Below are positions 7,031 to 19,574 of a stretch of DNA of 28,552 nt, piece after piece. Below the pieces are notes generated by a model. The model was given only the letters and a program-made list of their open reading frames with translations. It was not told the origin of the DNA and searched no databases. This DNA is from a virus. The translations under genes were made by a program, and so were the position numbers. Position 1 is the stretch's first letter. The number at the start of each line of letters is the position of its first letter. The stretch is from IMG/VR virus record IMGVR_UViG_3300001460_000013, positions 13,888-42,439 of that record. The stretch is one strand, 5' to 3'.

Positions 7031-7886
7031 GAAAGAAGAAACAATAGAAGTAGTAGATTACGAAACAAGAAAGAAAGCCATACGTTTACAAATTAAACAA
7101 CGTATGACTAATGATAAAGAATTTTTATTATTAGGAATAGTAGGATTACCTAAGACAGGTAAAAGTGGAACGGCAATGGATTGTCGAACTGAAGAAGAAA
7201 AGAAAGCAGGTATGAAAGTATTAGTTCTAGATTTAGATGATGGTTGTACTGCTACTTGGAACTCTGCTTGGCGAGATGAGAACATAGAAATTTATGTTCC
7301 TAATGTTCTAAAGTCAGATGGTAGTTGGGATTGGGAACAAACCTTTCACAATTGTCACGCTTGGTTAGAATATGCTAATGAATTAGTAAGTAAAGGGAAT
7401 GTAAAAGCAGTAATCTTAGATGGTGTAGATAAAGTAAATGAAGGTTCTAGTGATGTACTTAGAGAAGCCTTAGTAAAATCAAACAATAAAGGCCAATCTA
7501 TTATACATGATATAGATTCTATTAAAGTTCAACCATTAGATTGGAAGATTAGGAATAGAGTATACAATAGAATACTCAATCCATTCATTGCTCTTAGAGC
7601 AAATAGAATTTTAATAACACATCTAAAACCTATCTATGAAAATATAAATGTCCCTACACCTGTAGGGTTTGAACCGGATTGGCACAAGTCAACTCCGCAA
7701 AGATTGCTACAGATACTTACAGTCTCTAAAATTAAAAGAGGAGATAAAACATTGTATCGTGCGGTCTTAGATGATTGTAAAACTAACCCATCTTTAGTGG
7801 GTAAGTCTTGGAATGTATTTGAAGTATCTAAAACTGAAAATAAATGGTTGGGTATTGAAGAATATAAGACTGGAGAATTTAAGTGA
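7014..7886 (+). CDS. RecA/RadA-superfamily P-loop ATPase (Sak4-like)
   Basis: A 290-residue ATPase. Walker A is GLPKTGKS at 44-51 and Walker B is AVILDGVD at 132-139. An N-terminal segment of about 35 residues precedes the core. The compact core without N- or C-terminal recombinase domains resembles phage Sak4-type proteins and the AAA_24 group of RecA-fold ATPases, which help ssDNA annealing and recombination with SSB. ATG 7014 is preferred over 7002 because GGTGAT, a perfect match to the archaeal 16S tail, lies four bases before it. It follows SSB and abuts the clamp gene, its stop overlapping that gene's upstream region. The likely role is recombination-coupled replication or repair. A clamp- or helicase-loader role cannot be excluded. 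Confidence 0.75.
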   Translation: MSWNVKKEETIEVVDYETRKKAIRLQIKQRMTNDKEFLLLGIVGLPKTGKSGTAMDCRTEEEKKAGMKVLVLDLDDGCTATWNSAWRDENIEIYVPNVLKSDGSWDWEQTFHNCHAWLEYANELVSKGNVKAVILDGVDKVNEGSSDVLREALVKSNNKGQSIIHDIDSIKVQPLDWKIRNRVYNRILNPFIALRANRILITHLKPIYENINVPTPVGFEPDWHKSTPQRLLQILTVSKIKRGDKTLYRAVLDDCKTNPSLVGKSWNVFEVSKTENKWLGIEEYKTGEFK

Positions 7887-7891
7887 GAAAC

Positions 7892-8680
7892 ATGTCAGAA
7901 TGGAATATAAATATAAATGCAAATAAGTTAAAAGAAGTATTAGAAGATGTAGCCTTAAAGGGAAAATATTTTGATGGTATGGCTAGTAAGAATAGTCGTC
8001 TATCTGAGTATGCATATATTCAGTGCCATGAGAATGGCCTGTTTATATGTAATGCTAATGAGGCAACGGCATGTCTAATCTCACTAAATTTAGAAGAACA
8101 AGAGAGTGTTGATTCTAGTAGTGAAGTTGTTATTCTAGATATAGATAAGACAACTAAAATTCTTAAAGCGTTTAAGGAAGATGTACATATAACTGTAGGA
8201 GATTTCTTAACGTTTCAAGATGATTCTATTACTAGTAGAATGGCTAAGGTGTTAGAACATACATCTATGGTTATGATAGGTATGTTAATTGCTTATTTTA
8301 ACACTAACTCTCTTGAATTAACTCAAGATAATAGTATGAATACGTTTAGAAAAACAACCTTTGAGAGTAAGATAACTGTATTAGATACTGAGATGGTTAA
8401 TGTTGTAGAAGCCTGTAATGTTATGAACTTAGCAAAATATAAATTTGATTATGTACAGGAAGAAAGATTATCTATCTCTTCAAATAGAAGTGAAACAGAA
8501 ACTTTTACTATGGTTGTTCCTACAATACATTGTGCAGGACAAAGTGCTACTGTAGAATTTACAGGAGCATTTCATAAATTTATGAAAGGAGTCTTTCAAA
8601 TTCATATGAAAGATGACTGTCCAATATTACTAACCTCTCCAAGTAGGGTGTTAGTTAAAGCACCATACTTGAGGTATTGA
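7892..8680 (+). CDS. pcn: DNA sliding clamp, PCNA-like
   Basis: A 262-residue protein of PCNA length and layout. It begins with helix and strand elements (ANKLKEVLEDVALKG, then YAYIQCHENGLFICNAN) and ends with CPILLTSPSRVLVKAPYLRY, which parallels the PCNA ending of strand, loop and APxL motif. The middle connector region (DDSITSRMAKVLEHTSMVM) is divergent. It should form a trimeric ring that tethers polymerase, ligase and nucleases. ATG 7892 is chosen with AAGTGA as ribosome site; GTG 7883, which overlaps the upstream stop, would add three residues. Two proteins of this operon end in PIP-like motifs that would bind this ring. The polymerase gene starts one base after its stop. Confidence 0.85.
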   Translation: MSEWNININANKLKEVLEDVALKGKYFDGMASKNSRLSEYAYIQCHENGLFICNANEATACLISLNLEEQESVDSSSEVVILDIDKTTKILKAFKEDVHITVGDFLTFQDDSITSRMAKVLEHTSMVMIGMLIAYFNTNSLELTQDNSMNTFRKTTFESKITVLDTEMVNVVEACNVMNLAKYKFDYVQEERLSISSNRSETETFTMVVPTIHCAGQSATVEFTGAFHKFMKGVFQIHMKDDCPILLTSPSRVLVKAPYLRY

Positions 8681-8681
8681 G

Positions 8682-10322
8682 ATGATTATTAATAAAATAG
8701 AAACAGGAATAGGATTGAGTTACAAGGAGGACGGTAAAAGAATAATAAAAACTATACCGTACTCCGAGTACCCATCTTATTTTTATATACATGAACATCA
8801 AATTAAACCTAATAAAATTAAAATTAAAGATAAATGGGGAAGATTTGATTTAGAATTAAGTTATGAAACAGATGATAGTTACAAAGACTTAGAAGGTGAC
8901 TCTTTAGTAAAGGTTAGTTGGAAACCTAATCATAGTAGATATGCGTATAATGTTCGTAGATACTTTGAGAAACAAGGTAATGAAGACTTAGTTAATCCAA
9001 CTTATGAAGCAGACGTTAAACATGAATATCGCTATGCTATAGATAATATAGATTCTATTAAAGAGTATAACTTAACTAAGTTATATTTTGATATGGAATG
9101 GATGCAAGGTGGAGAATTTGACGAACAGATTACTTGTATTACTTGTAGGATTGATGGAGAAGATTTCTGTTATACTTGGTTACCTAATGAAGGTAGTGAA
9201 GCAGATGTAATTAATGACTTCTTAGATAAGATTGTATCTTCTGATGCTGATATGATTATATCTTGGTTCGGTTGGAAGTTCGACATACCTAAGTTAATTG
9301 AGAGAGCGGTGGCTAATGGTATAGACATTAGAAGAATTTCACCTTACTCTCAGATAACAGGAGTATCTAATGTAAAAGGTACTATAAAATGTAATACAGA
9401 AATCATACATAGATACTCTCCGGTAAGTCAACCAATAAAAGGTAGGATAGTAGTACCATTAGACTTAGCATTTGAAAGACAATGGAATGATTCACAGAGA
9501 GGAACGTTACCATCAATGGCTTTAGATTATGTATCTGAAACTATACTAGGTAATAAGAAGTTAGTAAGTACTAAGTTTCCTGATAAGAATGAATTCTTTG
9601 CTAGAGGATGGATAGAAGATAATGAAACATATATAGAGTATGCAATTAAAGATACTCAACTTATATCTGATTTAGATAATAAGATGAATATTACTGATTC
9701 AATTTTATCTTTACAAAAATTATTAGTCGCTCCATTCGATGCTTGTTTTTATGCGAGTAATATGGGTACGATTTACTTTTCAAGAACTGCTCATTGGAAA
9801 GCCCCAACGGGCAGAAAAACGGGTCGAAAAGACTACGATGGCGCAATGGTCTATGACCCACTAAGCGAGGCCACAAATGGCTTGCATTGGGGTGTAGCGG
9901 CCTTTGATTTTGCAGGTCTTTACCCATCAATGATGGTGGCTAGAAATATTAGTTGGGAAACAAAAAGTATAGAACCCACATCGTTCGCAGTAAATCTTAG
10001 CACACCTAAGGACTTTAGTGAAAACTCTAATGAAGATATGTTGTATTACAATACAGATAAGTTAGGTATGTTACCAAAGTCAGTTCTTAATCTTAAAACA
10101 TTAAGAGATTCATATAAACAAAATAGAAAGAACTCTACTTCTGAAGAAGAATACAATAAGTGGGATTCTAATCAGATGGCAGTTAAAAGATTAATGGCTT
10201 CCTTCTACGGTGTATTAGCATACCAAGGATTTGGTTGGGCAGATGTTGACTTAGCCGCTAGTATAACTGCTAGTGCTAGAGAAGCAATTAGAAGTGCCGC
10301 ATTTAAAGCGAGGGAATTATAA
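8682..10322 (+). CDS. polB: Family B DNA polymerase, N-terminal piece (exonuclease and palm up to motif B)
   Basis: The first 546 residues of a split family B polymerase. Exonuclease motifs are intact: Exo I FDMEW (D137, E139), Exo II WFGWKFDIPKL (D201) and Exo III YAIKDTQL (Y320, D324). Motif A is DFAGLYPS at 409-416 with catalytic D409, and the finger helix follows around LRDSYKQNRK. Motif B is KRLMASFYG at 502-510, with Ala where Asn is usual. The frame ends at TAA just after a helix (REAIRSAAFKAREL) that normally leads straight into motif C. Motif C is instead found on the next fragment, at 10838. The two must associate to give an active enzyme with proofreading. The stop overlaps the first of four inserted microgenes as TAATG. 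Confidence 0.93.
   Translation: MIINKIETGIGLSYKEDGKRIIKTIPYSEYPSYFYIHEHQIKPNKIKIKDKWGRFDLELSYETDDSYKDLEGDSLVKVSWKPNHSRYAYNVRRYFEKQGNEDLVNPTYEADVKHEYRYAIDNIDSIKEYNLTKLYFDMEWMQGGEFDEQITCITCRIDGEDFCYTWLPNEGSEADVINDFLDKIVSSDADMIISWFGWKFDIPKLIERAVANGIDIRRISPYSQITGVSNVKGTIKCNTEIIHRYSPVSQPIKGRIVVPLDLAFERQWNDSQRGTLPSMALDYVSETILGNKKLVSTKFPDKNEFFARGWIEDNETYIEYAIKDTQLISDLDNKMNITDSILSLQKLLVAPFDACFYASNMGTIYFSRTAHWKAPTGRKTGRKDYDGAMVYDPLSEATNGLHWGVAAFDFAGLYPSMMVARNISWETKSIEPTSFAVNLSTPKDFSENSNEDMLYYNTDKLGMLPKSVLNLKTLRDSYKQNRKNSTSEEEYNKWDSNQMAVKRLMASFYGVLAYQGFGWADVDLAASITASAREAIRSAAFKAREL
9781..9960. other. GC-rich patch inside polB just before and over motif A
   Basis: By hand count, 9781-9900 is 64 G/C of 120 (53%), while 9601-9660 is 30% and 10021-10080 is 27%. 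Codons also change, with CCC, ACG, GGG, GGC, GAG and GCG appearing close together. The reading frame and protein motifs continue normally, including DFAGLYPS at the end of the patch. It looks like a segment replaced by recombination with a higher-GC relative. Strong protein constraint alone is unlikely to explain it, because other conserved motifs in the gene stay AT-rich. Confidence 0.7.
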
Positions 10323-10447
10323 TGGCCGCAACAAAGAAAAGAGAAACTAAAGTTTGTAAAGTCTGTTCTAAGATATTTAGAATAGGAGTAAACAGACATG
10401 ATGTTTGTGCTACTTGTAAAAGACGTAACAAAGGAGTCAAACTATGA
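10322..10447 (+). CDS. Zinc-ribbon microprotein 1 inside the polB split
   Basis: A 41-residue, very basic protein with paired cysteines CKVC (12-15) and CATC (29-32) separated by 13 residues, fitting a single zinc ribbon. It starts on the TAATG overlap with the stop of the polymerase N-terminal piece and ends on an ATGA overlap with the next microgene, which argues for real, coupled translation. I know no named family for it. Basic residues around the ribbon (KKRETK, KRRNKGVK) suggest nucleic-acid binding. It may associate with the split polymerase. The cysteine pairs and the stop-start coupling are seen directly; the role is inferred. Confidence 0.65.
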   Translation: MAATKKRETKVCKVCSKIFRIGVNRHDVCATCKRRNKGVKL

Positions 10448-10581
10448 TGTCTCATGAAGAATATTTAAACATACCAATAGTAAGAAATTGTATCTTATGT
10501 GGTAAAAAATTTAGATTAGCAAAAAGAGAAGTAACACGATGTGCAAGATGTGTACGTCTATCTAGGGAGAAATTAAAATGA
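10444..10581 (+). CDS. Zinc-ribbon microprotein 2 inside the polB split
   Basis: A 45-residue protein with cysteine pairs CILC (16-19) and CARC (33-36), the same 13-residue spacing as the preceding microprotein and similar basic residues between them (KKFRLAKREVTR). The two are probably paralogues from a local duplication. ATG 10444 overlaps the upstream stop; a second ATG follows directly. Its end carries the GGGAGAAATTAAA ribosome site for the next microgene, so the coding sequence doubles as the leader. Likely a nucleic-acid or protein-binding zinc ribbon; function unknown. Confidence 0.65.
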   Translation: MMSHEEYLNIPIVRNCILCGKKFRLAKREVTRCARCVRLSREKLK

Positions 10582-10700
10582 GTAAAATAAATGTAAGTAT
10601 AAGACCAATACAAAGTAGAAAAAATGGAGCATTCACCTGTGACGCTTGTGGAACGTTAGTTACTGGAACAATGTTAGCATGTCCATGTAGGGGTGAGTAG
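10578..10700 (+). CDS. Cysteine-rich microprotein 3 inside the polB split
   Basis: A 40-residue protein with CDAC (21-24) and CPC (35-37), a tighter four-cysteine cluster than in the two preceding microproteins, consistent with a small zinc knuckle. The N-terminal half is basic (SIRPIQSRKNG). It starts on an ATGA overlap and has GGGAGAAATTAAA before the ATG, a leader shared with the genes at 3976 and 6785. It ends with TAG directly followed by the next ATG. No family recognised. Confidence 0.6.
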   Translation: MSKINVSIRPIQSRKNGAFTCDACGTLVTGTMLACPCRGE

Positions 10701-10838
10701 ATGAGTCGAATGAAAAGACATATGGAAAAGTTATACATGCATGGTAGACTATCAAAAGATATTCCTCATACAATGGATTTTGATACTTGGCAAGCAATAT
10801 TCCTATCGGTACGACAACTCCAACAGGAGGAAGAATAA
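10701..10838 (+). CDS. Small helical protein 4 inside the polB split
   Basis: A 45-residue protein without cysteines. It has a basic N-terminus (MSRMKRHMEK), then DFDTWQAIFLSVRQLQQEEE as a likely amphipathic helix. It starts immediately after the previous TAG and its TAA overlaps the ATG of the polymerase C-terminal piece. Its last codons supply the GGAGGAAG ribosome site for that piece, so translation of this gene may control how much C-terminal polymerase is made. Function otherwise unknown. Confidence 0.55.
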   Translation: MSRMKRHMEKLYMHGRLSKDIPHTMDFDTWQAIFLSVRQLQQEEE

Positions 10839-11719
10839 TGAAAGTAGTTTATGGACATACAGATTCTATCTATGTACAAATAGATAATTTAGAAACTGCT
10901 AAAGAAACTGTAAAGATTATTAATGACCATGTAAGAACTATCTTTCCTAATCTTTTAGGTTTAGAAGAACATCCTGTAACCTTAGAATTTGAGAAATACT
11001 TTCATAGTTTAGGAGTTGGAGCAACTAAGAATAGAAATGCAGGACTAATTACTTGGAAAGAAGGTAAAGATTTAGAAGAAATGGAATTTACTATGACTGG
11101 ATTTACTGCTAAGAGAGTTTCCGAAACTAAATTAGCAAAGAAAGTACAAATAACTACATTAAAAATGTGGGTCAATGGGAAATCTGAAGAAGATATTGTT
11201 ACTTATTTAAATGATACATATGAAAAAGTTAGATTTGGAAAGATTTCTAAGTCTGAAATTATAAAACGTAGTAGATATAGACCTGCTAGATTTACAGTAG
11301 TATGTAAAACATGTAAGAGAACTTCTGACTTAAACGATTTAAGTCGTAATGAGAAAACTTGTTGTGGTCAACCAGTTCTAGAGACTAGTGAAGGTAAACG
11401 TCCGACAATAGGAAGCAATGTAGAAGGAGTATTGTACTATAATAGTAATAACGAAATACCTATAGATGATTCTCATCTTTATCTTAAGATTAATAATAGT
11501 CATCTTAAGAAATACTTTCATCCTATCAAAGGTGAATGGTTAAAACCTAATTTTGTAGCAGAACTTAAGGAAGTAGACTTTGAAAAGTATGTTCCACATT
11601 GGGATTTCTATGCTGAAACTGTAGTAAAGAAAGCAGAGCCAATATTCAATGCAATGAATTGGGACATTAAACAAGTAATGAGAGATAGCAAACAAAAAAC
11701 ATTAGTGGAGTGGTTTTAA
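10838..11719 (+). CDS. polB: Family B DNA polymerase, C-terminal piece (motif C, thumb, PIP box)
   Basis: A 293-residue protein that completes the polymerase. It begins with KVVYGHTDSIYV, motif C, in which the first Asp of the usual DTDS is His. The second Asp (D9), which matches the main catalytic metal ligand, is present. Residues 50-71 (EFEKYFHSLGVGATKNRNAG) match the palm segment near the KKRY motif, and the thumb follows. Cys 156, 159, 175 and 176 form a CxxC plus CC cluster unusual for a thumb, probably a small zinc site. The terminal QKTLVEWF (286-293) is a textbook PIP box. The start is fixed by GGAGG upstream and the TAATG overlap. Together with the piece at 8682 it gives a nearly seamless polymerase of about 839 residues. 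Confidence 0.9.
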   Translation: MKVVYGHTDSIYVQIDNLETAKETVKIINDHVRTIFPNLLGLEEHPVTLEFEKYFHSLGVGATKNRNAGLITWKEGKDLEEMEFTMTGFTAKRVSETKLAKKVQITTLKMWVNGKSEEDIVTYLNDTYEKVRFGKISKSEIIKRSRYRPARFTVVCKTCKRTSDLNDLSRNEKTCCGQPVLETSEGKRPTIGSNVEGVLYYNSNNEIPIDDSHLYLKINNSHLKKYFHPIKGEWLKPNFVAELKEVDFEKYVPHWDFYAETVVKKAEPIFNAMNWDIKQVMRDSKQKTLVEWF

Positions 11720-12585
11720 TGAAAGAATATACATATAAATGGAATGCAGATAACGCAGATAATGAGGAGTTACCAATATTAAAGATAACAAAATCTTCTT
11801 TTGGTTCTTTTCAGTGGTGTCCAAAGAAGTATGAATTTGCATATATAGAAAGATTACCACAAGAAACTTCTGATGCTATGTGGAAAGGCACTATAATACA
11901 TAATGCAAGAGAAGATTTCTTTAATCAGTTTGATATTAAGAAGGCAGAGACATTAACTCAAAGTGAGTTAGTAGATTATTGTATGAGTTTGTATCCCATA
12001 GATGAGAATACTGATATGTATGAAACTATGTCTGTCTTTGAGGCTAACAGATTTTTAGAATCAGTAAAGACTGAAGAGACAAATCAATTCTTACCTGTAG
12101 TTAATGAAGCGATGTTAGATGCAGAAATTATAATAGGTAGAAATGATAACCCTAAGTTTCCACTACAAAGAGATTATGTTGTACATCTTCAAGGAATTAT
12201 AGATAGAATGTTTCAAGATGGTCAAGCCTATATTCCTATGGAATTAAAAACTGGCCCTTGGAAAGATTATAAAACAACTATGATGAGAAAAGAAATGGCT
12301 TTCTATAAATTACTATTTGAAAATGCAGAAGAAGAACAACTATTAGAAAATAAATTAGATAATAATATTCCAATAACACATTGGTCTTGGTATTATCCTG
12401 CATCAAATTATGTATATGTTGAAGGAGTTAAAACTACTAGTGCAAACGCAGTTAAAAAAGGCTTAGCAGAACTAGTTCATGCATATGAAAATAAAAACTT
12501 TCCTGCAAAATACTTTGCAAGAACATGTGCTTCATGTAGTTACTTTGGTATTTGTGATGCGGCCAATACGGAGAGTTGGTTATGA
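11719..12585 (+). CDS. Cas4/RecB-like PD-(D/E)XK nuclease with Fe-S cysteines
   Basis: A 288-residue nuclease of the PDDEXK_1/Cas4 group. Cys34 in FQWCPKKYEF pairs with the C-terminal cluster Cys 270, 273 and 279 (CASCSYFGIC), the usual four-cysteine iron-sulphur site. Catalytic residues are His61 (IIHNA), Asp162 (GIIDRM), and Glu175/Lys177 (ELKTG). Such enzymes resect DNA ends and are common in archaeal viruses. No Cas genes are nearby, so the role is replication or recombination rather than CRISPR adaptation. ATG 11719 overlaps the polymerase stop as TAATG. The terminal SWL slightly resembles a PIP ending but lacks the hydrophobic residue needed. Confidence 0.88.
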   Translation: MKEYTYKWNADNADNEELPILKITKSSFGSFQWCPKKYEFAYIERLPQETSDAMWKGTIIHNAREDFFNQFDIKKAETLTQSELVDYCMSLYPIDENTDMYETMSVFEANRFLESVKTEETNQFLPVVNEAMLDAEIIIGRNDNPKFPLQRDYVVHLQGIIDRMFQDGQAYIPMELKTGPWKDYKTTMMRKEMAFYKLLFENAEEEQLLENKLDNNIPITHWSWYYPASNYVYVEGVKTTSANAVKKGLAELVHAYENKNFPAKYFARTCASCSYFGICDAANTESWL

Positions 12586-12644
12586 AGTGGGAAAAATATT
12601 TTAAAGTAAAAGAAGAATATAAAAGGAGAAATAAATATGAGTAA
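12582..12644 (+). CDS. Possible 20-residue leader peptide
   Basis: A short frame, MKWEKYFKVKEEYKRRNKYE, starts on an ATGA overlap with the nuclease stop and ends just inside the next gene. It is highly charged. Its main effect may be to carry ribosomes to the following AAAAGGAGAAATAAATATG start. It may be real or simply a coupling leader; there is no independent support. Confidence 0.3.
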   Translation: MKWEKYFKVKEEYKRRNKYE

Positions 12645-12819
12645 AATTGAAGATATAGTAATGAAAAAAATAGAAGCAAGAGCAGTATTAGGAAGAAATA
12701 AATACAATATAACAATGGAAAGAACTGATTTAAGTAGAAAAGATTGGTTAATACATGCCCAAGAAGAGGCTCTAGACCTTGCAGTTTATTTACAGAAACT
12801 AATTATGGAGGAAGAATAA
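12637..12819 (+). CDS. MazG-like small all-alpha protein (nucleotide pyrophosphohydrolase type)
   Basis: A 60-residue protein. Its core, RAVLGRNKYNITMERTDLS then DWLIHAQEEALDLAVYLQKL, matches the pattern of phage MazG-like proteins, in which the helix with EEALD binds magnesium. MazG-type enzymes hydrolyse (d)NTPs to monophosphates. This one is shorter than the canonical 90-100 residues and may work as a multimer or have kept only the core helices. It has the same AAAAGGAGAAATAAAT leader as the SSB gene. Its stop overlaps the next start as TAATG. Nucleotide-pool cleaning during viral replication is a plausible role. Confidence 0.65.
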   Translation: MSKIEDIVMKKIEARAVLGRNKYNITMERTDLSRKDWLIHAQEEALDLAVYLQKLIMEEE

Positions 12820-16547: not shown

Positions 16548-17141
16548 ATGTCAGTTATGGCAATTGATTTAGAAACAAAAAACTACTCTTATGAAATAGG
16601 AGGTTGGGATAACACCCATATGTTTAGAGTGTCTACAGTTTGTACTTGGGATGGAGATAAAGGAACAATTTATATTGATAAAGCAGTAGATAATCTAAAG
16701 AAGTCTAATGTAGAAGTTAAAACAATCTCTCAACTTAAGTTTGATTTAGATGACCACTTTGAAAAAGGTGGTAAACTATTAGGACATAATATTGTAGCCT
16801 TTGACTTACCAGTATTAAAGAATGCATTAGATATATATTGTATTAAAAAATATTTAGATGCGGGAGCATATATTGATACAAGTCAAATATTAAATAAAGG
16901 ATATGGAGAAAGGTATAGTCTTTCTAATTTAGTTCAGCATACTTTAGGAACAGATAAACTAATGACTAGTGAAGATGCTCCTGTTGTTTGGAAAGCAGGT
17001 GGGTATTCGGAAGTTGCAGAATACTGTTTAAAAGATTGTGAGTTAGTTTATGATTTATGGAAACATGGTCAATCTCATAATATAGTAAAAGGTTTCTCTT
17101 TAAAAGGAGAAGAAATAAAAAACTTGGAGGTGGAATGGTAA
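16548..17141 (+). CDS. Stand-alone DEDDy 3'-5' exonuclease (RNase H fold)
   Basis: A 197-residue exonuclease similar to the proofreading domain of family B polymerases. Exo I is AIDLET (D7, E9), Exo II is GHNIVAFDLP (D86) and Exo III is YCLKD (Y159, D163), placing it in the DEDDy group. It is separate from the exonuclease domain already present in the polymerase piece at 8682. Roles could be mismatch or flap trimming, RNA-primer removal or host nucleic-acid degradation. ATG 16548, not the upstream extension, is used because the family motif begins there and GGGT lies seven bases before it. The C-terminus is followed by a TAATG overlap with a small membrane protein. Confidence 0.88.
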   Translation: MSVMAIDLETKNYSYEIGGWDNTHMFRVSTVCTWDGDKGTIYIDKAVDNLKKSNVEVKTISQLKFDLDDHFEKGGKLLGHNIVAFDLPVLKNALDIYCIKKYLDAGAYIDTSQILNKGYGERYSLSNLVQHTLGTDKLMTSEDAPVVWKAGGYSEVAEYCLKDCELVYDLWKHGQSHNIVKGFSLKGEEIKNLEVEW

Positions 17142-17299
17142 TGTCAACTTGGGAATATATAGGTTGGTTTTTCTTCTTTTGCTTAATGTGTCTTTTATTC
17201 TTTGCTTCATTCGGAACTAGTAGATATTCCGAATCTAGTATTGATGAATATATGGACAACTTGATAGCAGAGGAGAGCCAAAGAAATGGCCCTCTCTGA
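17141..17299 (+). CDS. Small one-pass membrane protein
   Basis: A 52-residue protein with one strongly hydrophobic segment, about residues 7-24 (IGWFFFFCLMCLLFFASF), then an acidic cytoplasmic- or exterior-facing tail (SSIDEYMDNLIAEE). It starts on a TAATG overlap with the exonuclease stop and has GGAGGTGG upstream, an excellent archaeal ribosome site. Small membrane proteins at operon ends may be holin- or egress-like, but no family is recognised. Confidence 0.6.
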   Translation: MSTWEYIGWFFFFCLMCLLFFASFGTSRYSESSIDEYMDNLIAEESQRNGPL

Positions 17300-17423
17300 A
17301 ATTTGTAAATTTTGTAATCAATTATCTATCCCTAAAAGGATTAAGGGTAGATATATTGGTTCAAAAGAACAAATTAAAATTTGGGAATGTCGTAAATGTA
17401 AAGCACTATGGTCAGATAATTAA
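17286..17423 (+). CDS. Zinc-ribbon microprotein at the operon end
   Basis: A 45-residue basic protein with CKFC (7-10) and CRKC (35-38), the same one-ribbon style as the microproteins inside the polB split but with a longer loop. GGAGAG lies about eight bases before ATG 17286, inside the upstream gene. The last codons form the left arm of the terminator hairpin. Probably a small nucleic-acid-binding protein; function unknown. Confidence 0.6.
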   Translation: MALSEICKFCNQLSIPKRIKGRYIGSKEQIKIWECRKCKALWSDN

Positions 17424-17453
17424 TTTTATCCGGCCATAGTGTCTTTTTTTTTT
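17403..17453 (+). terminator. Hairpin plus T10 terminator of the replication operon
   Basis: CACTATGG (17404-17411) pairs perfectly with CCATAGTG (17434-17441). The stem extends through G-T wobbles to about 11 pairs, and a run of ten T (17444-17453) starts 2 bases later. Only the plus strand has a T-tract after the stem, so it terminates transcription from the replication operon. The left arm lies inside the last gene's coding end and the stop codon is in the loop. Confidence 0.85.
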
Positions 17454-17470
17454 AAAAAATTTAATAAAAT

Positions 17471-17513
17471 ATTAGTGTTATATAACATTAAAATAATTAG
17501 TGTTATATAACAC
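17471..17513. promoter_or_regulatory. Two palindromic operator-like sites 25 bp apart
   Basis: ATTAGTGTTATATAACA occurs at 17471-17487 and again at 17496-17512. Each contains a perfect palindrome, TGTTATATAACA in the first and GTGTTATATAACAC (17500-17513) in the second, with centres exactly 25 bp apart. They lie just upstream of a TATA box, in the main gene-free stretch of the window (17424-17684). This is the expected look of a site for a dimeric regulator binding twice. No binding protein can be named. Confidence 0.7.
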
Positions 17514-17547
17514 AAAACCTATTAGACATTTTGGGGGTGTCTGAGAG

Positions 17548-17555
17548 TATATAAA
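17548..17555 (+). promoter_or_regulatory. TATA box TATATAAA in the control region
   Basis: TATATAAA is preceded by the purine-rich CTGAGAG, which could act as a BRE. A start about 25 bases further on would give a leader of roughly 105 bases to the membrane protein at 17685. The box also reads TTTATATA on the minus strand, the classic archaeal form, so the direction is not certain. Plus is favoured because new plus-strand genes follow the terminator. Just upstream, AGACA (17524-17528) and TGTCT (17538-17542) flank a GGGGG-containing loop. Confidence 0.55.
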
Positions 17556-17617
17556 CTCCGAAAAAATGGTTGAACTGCTTTTCTAATTTACACACTTTAG
17601 CAAAAAAATAAAATACT

Positions 17618-17650
17618 AGTGGTTTACTTTTTACACTATGACTAACCACT
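17618..17650 (+). other. Hairpin-capable leader before the micro-ORF cluster
   Basis: AGTGGTT (17618-17624) is the exact reverse complement of AACCACT (17644-17650), with a 19-base loop. It falls in the presumed 5' leader of the membrane protein at 17685. It might affect translation or be a regulator site. Seven base pairs with a long loop is modest evidence. Confidence 0.35.
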
Positions 17651-17684
17651 CCGATATTAGTGAAGCATTTGTAGGTTGGAATGC

Positions 17685-17867
17685 ATGAATTTAAATCTTG
17701 ATTTTACAATGGGATTTCTTGATAATCTAAATGCAAATATATATGAGATACCAACTTCTATCAAACTTATTTTAATGGTTCTTGGTTTAGTAAGTATAGT
17801 AGGTATGGAAAGATGGCGTTCTTTTAAAAAAAATTATATTAATTTCTTTGGTTTTAAGGTAGAATAA
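17685..17867 (+). CDS. Small one-pass membrane protein in the control region
   Basis: A 60-residue protein with one transmembrane segment near residues 25-43 (SIKLILMVLGLVSIVGM), an uncharged-to-acidic N-terminal part and a basic C-terminal part (ERWRSFKKNY). By the positive-inside rule the C-terminus would face the cytoplasm. ATG 17685 is taken instead of TTG 17676; AGGTTGG upstream is a weak ribosome site. It is the first gene after the TATA box. It could act in egress, superinfection exclusion or membrane anchoring, but no family is recognised. Confidence 0.55.
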   Translation: MNLNLDFTMGFLDNLNANIYEIPTSIKLILMVLGLVSIVGMERWRSFKKNYINFFGFKVE

Positions 17868-17939
17868 ATGAAAATAGATTCAGATGGTTATAACCGATTT
17901 TGGTTTTGGTTTGCTAAAAAGATAGGGTTAATAATATGA
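17868..17939 (+). CDS. Micro-ORF, 23 residues, aromatic-rich
   Basis: ATG follows the preceding TAA with no gap. The product has a Phe/Trp-rich middle (RFWFWFAKKIGLII) that could be a membrane-surface helix. Its stop overlaps the next ATG as ATGATGG. Support comes from back-to-back coupling only; a peptide this short may not be functional. Confidence 0.3.
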   Translation: MKIDSDGYNRFWFWFAKKIGLII

Positions 17940-18004
17940 TGGACTGGGATTATTGGGATGCAATTCTAGAAGCGATGGGTGAGAGTATTGAGCAGAATAG
18001 ATAA
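17936..18004 (+). CDS. Micro-ORF, 22 residues, acidic
   Basis: MMDWDYWDAILEAMGESIEQ is an acidic, probably helical peptide. It starts on an overlap with the preceding stop. Its codons for MGES contain GGGTGA, a good ribosome site for the following micro-ORF. Real function is unproven. Confidence 0.25.
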   Translation: MMDWDYWDAILEAMGESIEQNR

Positions 18005-18062
18005 GATGTTTTGGTATCTTTCAAATAAATTTTTTGTGTGGTTAGCACTAAAGAATCAATAA
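17988..18062 (+). CDS. Micro-ORF, 24 residues, hydrophobic
   Basis: It reads from TTG 17988, placed seven bases after GGGTGA, or from ATG 18006. The peptide is hydrophobic (MFWYLSNKFFVWLALKNQ from the ATG). Its TAA (18060-18062) sits directly against the stop of the convergent fibre gene (18063-18065). Tentative. Confidence 0.25.
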   Translation: MSRIDKMFWYLSNKFFVWLALKNQ

Positions 18063-19574
18063 TTATGTAAAATCTACCCATACGGTAATTAGAACTTCTT
18101 CAAAAGTAATATCTCCACTTACTCTTCTAACTTGTATTGCGTCACCTGCTACAAAGGCTTGGTTAAAATCTAAAGTGGCTACGGCATAAGTGCTACTATT
18201 ACCAAATGGCCTTATCATATTATCACCATTTAATACGACAGTTGCATAATCATCACCACTATTAGCGCCAGTAATTCTTACGGCAAAAGTAGCACCGTTA
18301 GTACTACTAGTAATAGTTCCACCACCTGCATTTCTAATTGTTATAGCCTTTACTACTCCCGCAACAGGCATACCATAACTGTTAATACTACTACTAGAAG
18401 CGTTTGCACCTAATACATTAAAATTATAATTAGCAGTATTACTCACGTTGTCTCCTTGGAAAAAGAACTGAGCATAACCATTAAATTTACTACTAAATCT
18501 TACTACATCAGCACCATCAGTTTTTAATATTTCATCTACTGTACCGTCTGCGTTAGGTAATTTATAAGCATCATTTATGTTTAATGTACCATCTGATTCA
18601 AGTAGCATTCTTACTCCACCATTTCCATACCATCTTAAATCATTAGAACCATTACCCGAATTTATTATCCACGGCCCAGTTGAATCAGATGATAACTCAA
18701 GAGCCGCCTCGTTATCTGTAGATTCTACTGTTATCTTTTGCACACCTGAACCTTTAACATGTAATGCAGTAGAAGGAGAAGTATTGTTAAGTCCTATTCC
18801 GAGTCTACCATTACTACCGTCTAAAAACATTCCATTAGTACCACCTGCATAAGTAAAAACAAGACTACCACCTGCGACATTAGAACCTATACGAACTGTA
18901 TTAGGTAAAGTTCCATTAGTGCTTCCTCTATATTGGAATATTCCGACAGTTGCAGTATTTTCTTTTAATGTAAAAGTTCCTAGACCCGCCGTATTGTCAT
19001 TGTCAATAGAAATTGCTAAGGTGCCCGATGTATCACCTGCAACTTCTAATTTTTCAGCAGGAATTGTAGTACCTATTCCAACATTACCACTATCAAGTAC
19101 CGTAACTTTTGTAGCCCCACCTGCTTGTAAATACAAATCATCATCGGCTCTTAAGAATAAATCATCATCGGCTCTTATTGTCATATCTGAACCGGAAGTA
19201 CTACTGTAAATGTATGTACTAGCATTTCCACCAAAGTGTATAGCAGTACCCGCAGTACCATCTGACATTACATCAATTGCACCATTTATCTCTACTTTTT
19301 TAGAATTTGTTGGATTTAATGAAATAGTTCCATCGGCATTAACTGCCATACTTTGTACTCCTGATATATCATTTACACTAAAGATATCTCCACTGTTTAA
19401 TATTGGAGAGATAGAGAAAACTTGTCCTTGTACTCCCTCAAAGGATAAACTATTATCATCTAATATTTTTAAATCAATAGGACTGTTATCCTTACCTGTA
19501 AATGTCATTTTAGGATGTGTAGATGCTACACCTGTATTGGGTGTAATTAAAATGTCTTTATCACTATCTGCCAT
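18063..19574 (-). CDS. Tail-fibre protein with GIGT repeats and C-terminal knob
   Basis: A 503-residue fibre protein. It contains two copies of the GNVGIGTTxPxxKLxV element (around residues 168-182, and a second variant reading RLGIGLNNTSPSTALHV) that recur in the large fibre upstream. Glycine/asparagine/serine-rich beta repeats such as RADDDLFLRADDDLYLQAGG lie between. The last 150 residues lose the repeats and look like a compact beta-sandwich, probably the receptor-binding or trimerisation tip. The start overlaps the upstream LamG stop as TAATG. It is the last gene of the minus-strand operon. No hairpin terminator is seen beyond it; the nearest minus-strand U-tract is T8 at 17833-17826. 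Confidence 0.8.
   Translation of the reverse strand: MADSDKDILITPNTGVASTHPKMTFTGKDNSPIDLKILDDNSLSFEGVQGQVFSISPILNSGDIFSVNDISGVQSMAVNADGTISLNPTNSKKVEINGAIDVMSDGTAGTAIHFGGNASTYIYSSTSGSDMTIRADDDLFLRADDDLYLQAGGATKVTVLDSGNVGIGTTIPAEKLEVAGDTSGTLAISIDNDNTAGLGTFTLKENTATVGIFQYRGSTNGTLPNTVRIGSNVAGGSLVFTYAGGTNGMFLDGSNGRLGIGLNNTSPSTALHVKGSGVQKITVESTDNEAALELSSDSTGPWIINSGNGSNDLRWYGNGGVRMLLESDGTLNINDAYKLPNADGTVDEILKTDGADVVRFSSKFNGYAQFFFQGDNVSNTANYNFNVLGANASSSSINSYGMPVAGVVKAITIRNAGGGTITSSTNGATFAVRITGANSGDDYATVVLNGDNMIRPFGNSSTYAVATLDFNQAFVAGDAIQVRRVSGDITFEEVLITVWVDFT

Follow-up and report, generated by a model that had tools for sequence, protein, structure and literature searches.

A lineage of abundant ocean viruses, the magroviruses, keeps a break in the gene for its B-family DNA polymerase (polB) and appears to use this break as a dock for exchangeable genes. 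Our preferred reading, in which sequence comparisons give us considerable confidence, is that an ancestral fission of a B5-like viral polB became fixed in the magrovirus lineage, and that the junction between the two halves now acts as a cargo slot in a translationally coupled replication operon. The exchange of cargo and of polymerase halves at the split is the main feature of this arrangement, and it was missed in an earlier note on this DNA, which concentrated on four microgenes lying inside the split.

The stretch of DNA analysed, hereafter the window (28,552 nucleotides), is part of an 86,154-base IMG/VR virus record. The features that concern us are the following:

7883..8680, + strand: conserved operon gene upstream of PolB-N; PCNA by context, no Pfam match at E < 0.01
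8682..10322, + strand: PolB-N, 546 aa; exonuclease domain, palm motif A (DFAGLYPS), motif B (KRLMASFYG) and the helix after motif B
10322..10447, + strand: slot gene 1, 41 aa; CxxC-x(11)-CxxC, zinc-ribbon-like microprotein, slot family 12
10444..10581, + strand: slot gene 2, 45 aa; CxxC-x(13)-CxxC, paralogue of gene 1, family 12
10578..10700, + strand: slot gene 3, 40 aa; CxxC...CPC microprotein, family 35
10701..10838, + strand: slot gene 4, 45 aa; no cysteines, family 36
10838..11719, + strand: PolB-C, 293 aa; motif C (YGHTDS) at the extreme N-terminus, the rest of the palm, thumb and a Cys-rich insert
11710..12585, + strand: conserved operon gene downstream of PolB-C; PD-(D/E)XK (RecB/Cas4-like) nuclease, Pfam PDDEXK_1 1e-14

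The two polymerase pieces cover complementary parts of the Pfam DNA_pol_B profile, which PolB-N matches with an E-value of 5.5e-19 and PolB-C with 1.6e-08. PolB-N also matches PHROG 262 (3.2e-51), and a structure search with PolB-C retrieved archaeal PolB (E 1.7e-05). When joined, the pieces align collinearly with archaeal PolBs, including that of Deep Vent, except for about two residues that are missing where the halves meet, and also with the intact halovirus PolB, in which the stretch equivalent to the PolB-N end (..KAREL) and the PolB-C start (MKVVYGHTDS) reads ...QELGF-EVIYGDTDS. The polymerase is thus divided as first proposed: PolB-N ends after the motif-B helix, PolB-C starts at motif C, and little or no sequence has been lost. 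The motif A Asp, the motif B Lys and Tyr, and the second Asp of motif C are invariant in the alignments of relatives, and both pieces have dN/dS values of ~0.1. PolB-C begins with MKVVYGHTDS in all 17 relatives aligned (window 10838-10867, PolB-C residues 1-10), so that motif C has a His in place of the first Asp, HTD not the canonical DTD; the motif of the intact haloviruses is YGDTDS. Moreover, the position of the ExoII Asn is occupied by Phe (ExoII region of PolB-N, window 9252-9287). Because of the HTD motif and the absent ExoII Asn, full catalysis and proofreading by the split enzyme are only putative. Modelled alone, PolB-C has a well-formed thumb and a palm part of low confidence (much of it with pLDDT under 50), as expected if the palm requires PolB-N.

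The gap between the halves (10322-10838) is filled by four chained ORFs of 41, 45, 40 and 45 codons. Our coordinates agree with the earlier note for these ORFs and for their junctions, which are TAATG at 10320-10324, ATGA at 10444, ATGA at 10578, TAG-ATG at 10698-10703, and TAATG into PolB-C at 10836-10840; neighbours overlap by one or four bases, or directly abut. None of 5000 dinucleotide shuffles of the region gave a chain of at least two ORFs of at least 38 aa. The final PolB-N codons (GCGAGGGAATTA) include the GAGG Shine-Dalgarno motif of the following gene, and the 3' end of slot gene 4 (GGAGGAAGAATAATG) contains that of PolB-C while also coding for the EEE tail of gene 4.

Three of these ORFs are zinc-ribbon-like, as had been noticed: ORFs 1 and 2 by CxxC...CxxC and ORF3 by CxxC...CPC. 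In family 12, four Cys and one Phe are invariant in 12 sequences, and members often occur as paralogous pairs; the pattern of two CxxC knuckles fits a zinc-ribbon microprotein, and zinc binding is predicted. The AlphaFold model of gene 2 consists of a beta-hairpin and a C-terminal helix (mean pLDDT 78), and a fold search with it gave no significant structural match. A search with one subfamily of family 12 found 11 close relatives of gene 2 in IMG/VR, every one of them in a slot directly downstream of PolB-N. Among the slot families compared, genes 3 and 4 recur solely in the slot of locus L002, which holds eight genes and whose PolB-N is 90% identical to that of the window. Their pairwise dN/dS values, each from a single pair, are 0.34 and 0.27, in line with the purifying selection looked for on the microprotein frames. 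Together with the family medians given below, these values make the microgenes look like constrained genes.

Relatives were collected by IMG/VR scans with PolB-N and PolB-C and one GTDB scan, which yielded over 200 loci; after removal of loci with an identical junction, 141 were left (L-numbers are locus labels). The polymerase is split at the same residue in 139 of them, all magrovirus-type, and is fused in the other two, the haloviruses HVTV-1 and HF1. Because the 139 include close relatives, they do not represent 139 independent lineages. The earlier note considered that close relatives with an intact polB and no cassette, together with evidence of misassembly, would speak against it; no fused magrovirus-type relative is present among the 139 junctions, and in phage-record searches only distant T4-like and halovirus polymerases matched. 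Since the break is at the same residue in all 139, we conclude that the split is an old, fixed trait of the lineage. One magrovirus-type contig (L172, NZMJ01000151.1) lies within a MAG named Maricaulis sp., probably by a binning error.

A split viral PolB is of a known kind, and the suggestion that the system is undescribed does not hold for the split itself, because the ICTV profile of the Aoguangviridae already labels PolB-NTD and PolB-CTD (PMC10768690). According to that profile, the Magrovirales (Aoguangviridae, virus YSH_150918) are viruses of Poseidoniales and have a replication cluster with PolB in N- and C-terminal pieces and gene types as in the window; the labels stand in a figure legend only, and the accessible text does not mention a variable slot, coupling or exchange (PMC10768690). 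In the literature searched, whose scope excluded most subscription journals and the 2017 magrovirus paper, we found no description of a cargo slot or of half-swapping at a split polymerase. The haloviruses HF1 and HVTV-1 have a related viral PolB of the B5 group, but theirs is intact (854 and 913 aa) and has no slot. Just upstream of the intact polB of HF1 are two 39-aa genes annotated as CxxC motif proteins (L174:1074-1193 and 1656-1775), from which zinc-type microgenes beside polB may be older than the split. Methanothermobacter shares the trait of an archaeal PolB made from two genes, but that enzyme is a cellular PolB3. Kelman et al. (1999) reportedly found that both of its polypeptides are needed, and we know of no cargo slot in this split PolB. 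The Methanothermobacter split has been ascribed to erratic intein excision (PMC4104785). By analogy with experiments on the split gp43 of T4-related phages and on Methanothermobacter PolB, the two magrovirus polypeptides would form one polymerase.

The slot ranges in length from -4 nt (an ATGA overlap) to 2392 nt, with a median of 529 nt, and at five junctions it is empty, with the halves within a few nt of each other. In total, 524 slot ORFs were predicted (0-10 per slot, median 57 aa), which fall into about 78 families; these are single-linkage clusters, and families 4 and 5 probably merge distinct groups. A CxxC motif is present in 31% of the ORFs and a hydrophobic segment in 24%. Besides zinc-ribbon-like proteins, the cargo of relatives includes membrane microproteins, coiled coils, DUF2061 (L072), an HNH gene just above the Pfam cut-off (L208), T5orf172/MUG113 GIY-YIG-type genes (family 30; three loci, including L220) and an HUH Rep. 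The last is a Viral_Rep domain (PF02407, 4e-17) at L105:5410-5754, in the slot of a magrovirus-type contig; this domain is typical of small ssDNA viruses. Median dN/dS is 0.05-0.39 in 26 of the 27 families for which it was estimated, and purifying selection acts on most of them. The slot also offers a bounded region for the discovery of viral effector microproteins, such as zinc ribbons, membrane peptides and Rep-like proteins.

The operon gene order was recovered across loci by tblastn, with ligase, RFC-S, PCNA, primase, nuclease and helicase looked for around polB; Pfam confirms only PolB and the PD-(D/E)XK nuclease, and most other names come from context. Median spacings at other junctions are 6 nt (PCNA/PolN), 31 nt (PolC/RecB) and -4 nt (ERCC4/helicase). 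The RecB/primase junction, with a median of 421 nt, is variable too; the PolB slot is thus not the only cargo site, and 12 of the 78 cargo families also occur at other operon junctions. A 60-aa gene of the window (12637-12819, MSKIEDIV...) resembles slot family 34, whose members lie between the polymerase halves of L089 and L094 and, in other relatives, at the RecB/primase junction; from this placement, cargo may be transferred between junctions of one operon.

The commonest slot junction is ATGA, a 4-nt overlap, and a Shine-Dalgarno-like 4-mer is present at -18 to -4 of 452 of the 524 slot ORF starts (86%), compared with 67 of 524 (13%) in a control stretch inside genes. These values bear out the proposal that the ORFs are translationally coupled genes. 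The proposed mechanism starts from ends suited to coupling: the last polN codons contain a Shine-Dalgarno motif of the GAGG type, and polC starts with an ATGA from which the upstream gene can take its stop. Cargo genes bring their own Shine-Dalgarno motif and mostly join by ATGA or TAATG overlaps, and because of these two properties the chain stays unbroken when genes are added or removed. The operon is a clear case of the modularity that translational coupling can give.

One alternative, which we regard as unlikely, has polB split by a homing endonuclease or another selfish element that is still using the site; the slot would be the footprint of this element, and the microgenes its remnants or followers. 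The nuclease genes found in slots (HNH and GIY-YIG-type) fit this idea, as does an HNH gene located just upstream of the intact polB of HVTV-1. There are also precedents. In the Aeromonas phages 25 and 44RR, gene 43 is split into 43A and 43B with inserted DNA, and the products co-purify and are active (PMC2988022); a seg gene can lie beside the split in such T4-related phages. Homing endonuclease genes (HEGs) are enriched near phage DNA polymerases, and in phage HEG islands variable genes, including T5orf172 and HNH, lie beside essential replication genes and coincide with recombination boundaries (PMC10448857). However, the insert in the Aeromonas phages is untranslated sequence with or without a seg endonuclease, whereas the magrovirus junction holds up to 10 coding genes, chained and exchangeable; and the HEG islands are nuclease-driven, whereas here the cargo is mostly microproteins and the boundary lies inside the polymerase. 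Nuclease genes were recognized in only a few of the 139 junctions, and no HNH, GIY-YIG or LAGLIDADG homing endonuclease is present among the four ORFs of the window. The bulk of the cargo encodes no nuclease and evolves under purifying selection, and intein or intron traces are lacking. Pfam detected no intein domain in the PolB pieces or microproteins of the window, nor at the PolB-N C-terminus or the PolB-C N-terminus, and a group I or II intron was rejected as no Rfam match at the gathering threshold was obtained for the window and four slot loci; on both, the first reading was right. Given the precedents, insertion of a homing endonuclease is plausible as the origin of the split, not of the present slot content. 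The idea that the microgenes are remnants of a mobile cassette came near the truth as to mobility, but the slot is in active turnover rather than a relic.

This turnover is seen when cargo and polymerase are compared between loci. Mean cargo-family overlap is 0.78 at a PolB-N identity of at least 98% and 0.03 or less below 65%. Even so, five loci with PolB-N sequences at least 95% identical have disjoint or empty slots: L075 (empty), L083 (family 55), L129 (family 17), L130 (family 16) and L077 (families 16 and 17). L105 differs from L033 (PolB-N 99.5% identical) by one extra gene, the Rep-like one, exactly at a gene boundary. Conversely, the PolB-N sequences of L002 and L104 are 63% identical but their cargo 86-96%, and the slot of L002 combines, in a mosaic, blocks resembling L104 with others resembling the window. 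Judged from these identities, the comparisons show that cargo is replaced far more quickly than the polymerase and passes from one divergent virus to another.

These data also bear on the possibility that the four microproteins serve the split polymerase as dedicated subunits or stoichiometry regulators, both raised in the earlier note, or as assembly chaperones. Their position between the halves, in the same operon and with coupled translation, would suit such a role, zinc ribbons are common in replication proteins, and relatives in family 12 have so far turned up in the polymerase slot only. However, genes 3 and 4 are found elsewhere only in L002, most relatives carry unrelated cargo behind the same split, some of the five empty junctions have polymerases nearly identical to those at filled ones, and cargo families are present at other operon junctions. 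Near-identical PolB-N pieces with unrelated or no cargo imply that the zinc microproteins are not required subunits, and we consider this role very improbable. The search of related viruses that the note had proposed recovered the split in 139 of 139 junctions, with mostly unrelated cargo or none in the gap. Under the cargo-slot reading, the four microproteins would be lineage-specific accessory passengers co-expressed with the replisome, not polymerase parts, and probably zinc-binding effectors acting on host or viral partners. The view that the split reflects decay or misassembly of the polymerase, with the small ORFs as chance frames, for which ORF size alone could be invoked, has practically no chance of being correct and is refuted by the comparative data: the same break in 139 junctions, invariant motifs on both sides, the low dN/dS of both pieces, the absence of the ORF chain from the shuffles, and the Shine-Dalgarno enrichment.

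The polymerase halves themselves have also been exchanged. The PolB-N of L226 is 99% identical to that of L221, but the PolB-C pieces are only 55% identical; compared with L210, L226 has a PolB-C that is 98% identical and slot genes that are 88-100% identical, but a PolB-N of 69% identity. An exact-junction scan for the L226 junction returned L226 itself and a third virus type, L265-L267, in which the same slot (~95% identical to L226) follows a PolB-N sharing 58-60% identity with the others; over its first 77 aa, the L265 PolB-C is 100% identical to L210. The exchange point in L221/L226/L265, the clearest of the breakpoints, lies inside a 42-nt tract common to the polN 3' ends. Because a module of slot and PolB-C that is 95-100% identical is found behind PolB-N pieces only ~60% alike, the polymerase halves reassort. 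L226 is a single contig that could in principle be misassembled via the shared 42-nt tract; the L265-L267 case is replicated, albeit by three near-identical assemblies.

Strong half-exchange events are few (about 2-3 loci). When five boundaries between neighbouring segments (PCNA, PolB-N halves, PolB-C halves, RecB) were tested, strong identity discordance was found only across the slot, at ~3 loci. In L120, the switch is near the slot/PolB-C boundary, and the discordance of L091 has its breakpoint within polN and not at the slot. In 14 of 134 loci, compared with 1.1% in controls, the tails of polN and of the first cargo gene share a match of at least 9 nt; a general repeat of the Shine-Dalgarno tail as recombination site would thus be a minor contributor at most.

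In a few lineages, the slot and PolB-C have thus been exchanged against a different PolB-N, with one crossover in the conserved polN 3' end; such exchange presumably proceeds through homologous recombination in the conserved motif-B and motif-C flanks. It is conceivable, although we hold it to be somewhat doubtful, that the fission of polB serves as an evolvability device, with the catalytic motifs as homology arms, a single crossover swapping microgenes or a half, and heterologous halves (~55-75% identical to the original partners) still working. Such natural chimeras offer a test of how far two replicative polymerase halves must co-evolve.

Outside the polymerase slot, another 45-aa CxxC...CxxC microgene is present at window positions 17286-17423, after an exonuclease-like gene. 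The ~0.9 kb between the replication and structural gene blocks (window ~17100-18100) contains small ORFs only, and the GC skew switches sign near 18 kb (window ~17100-18100), at the meeting point of the rightward replication genes and the leftward structural genes.
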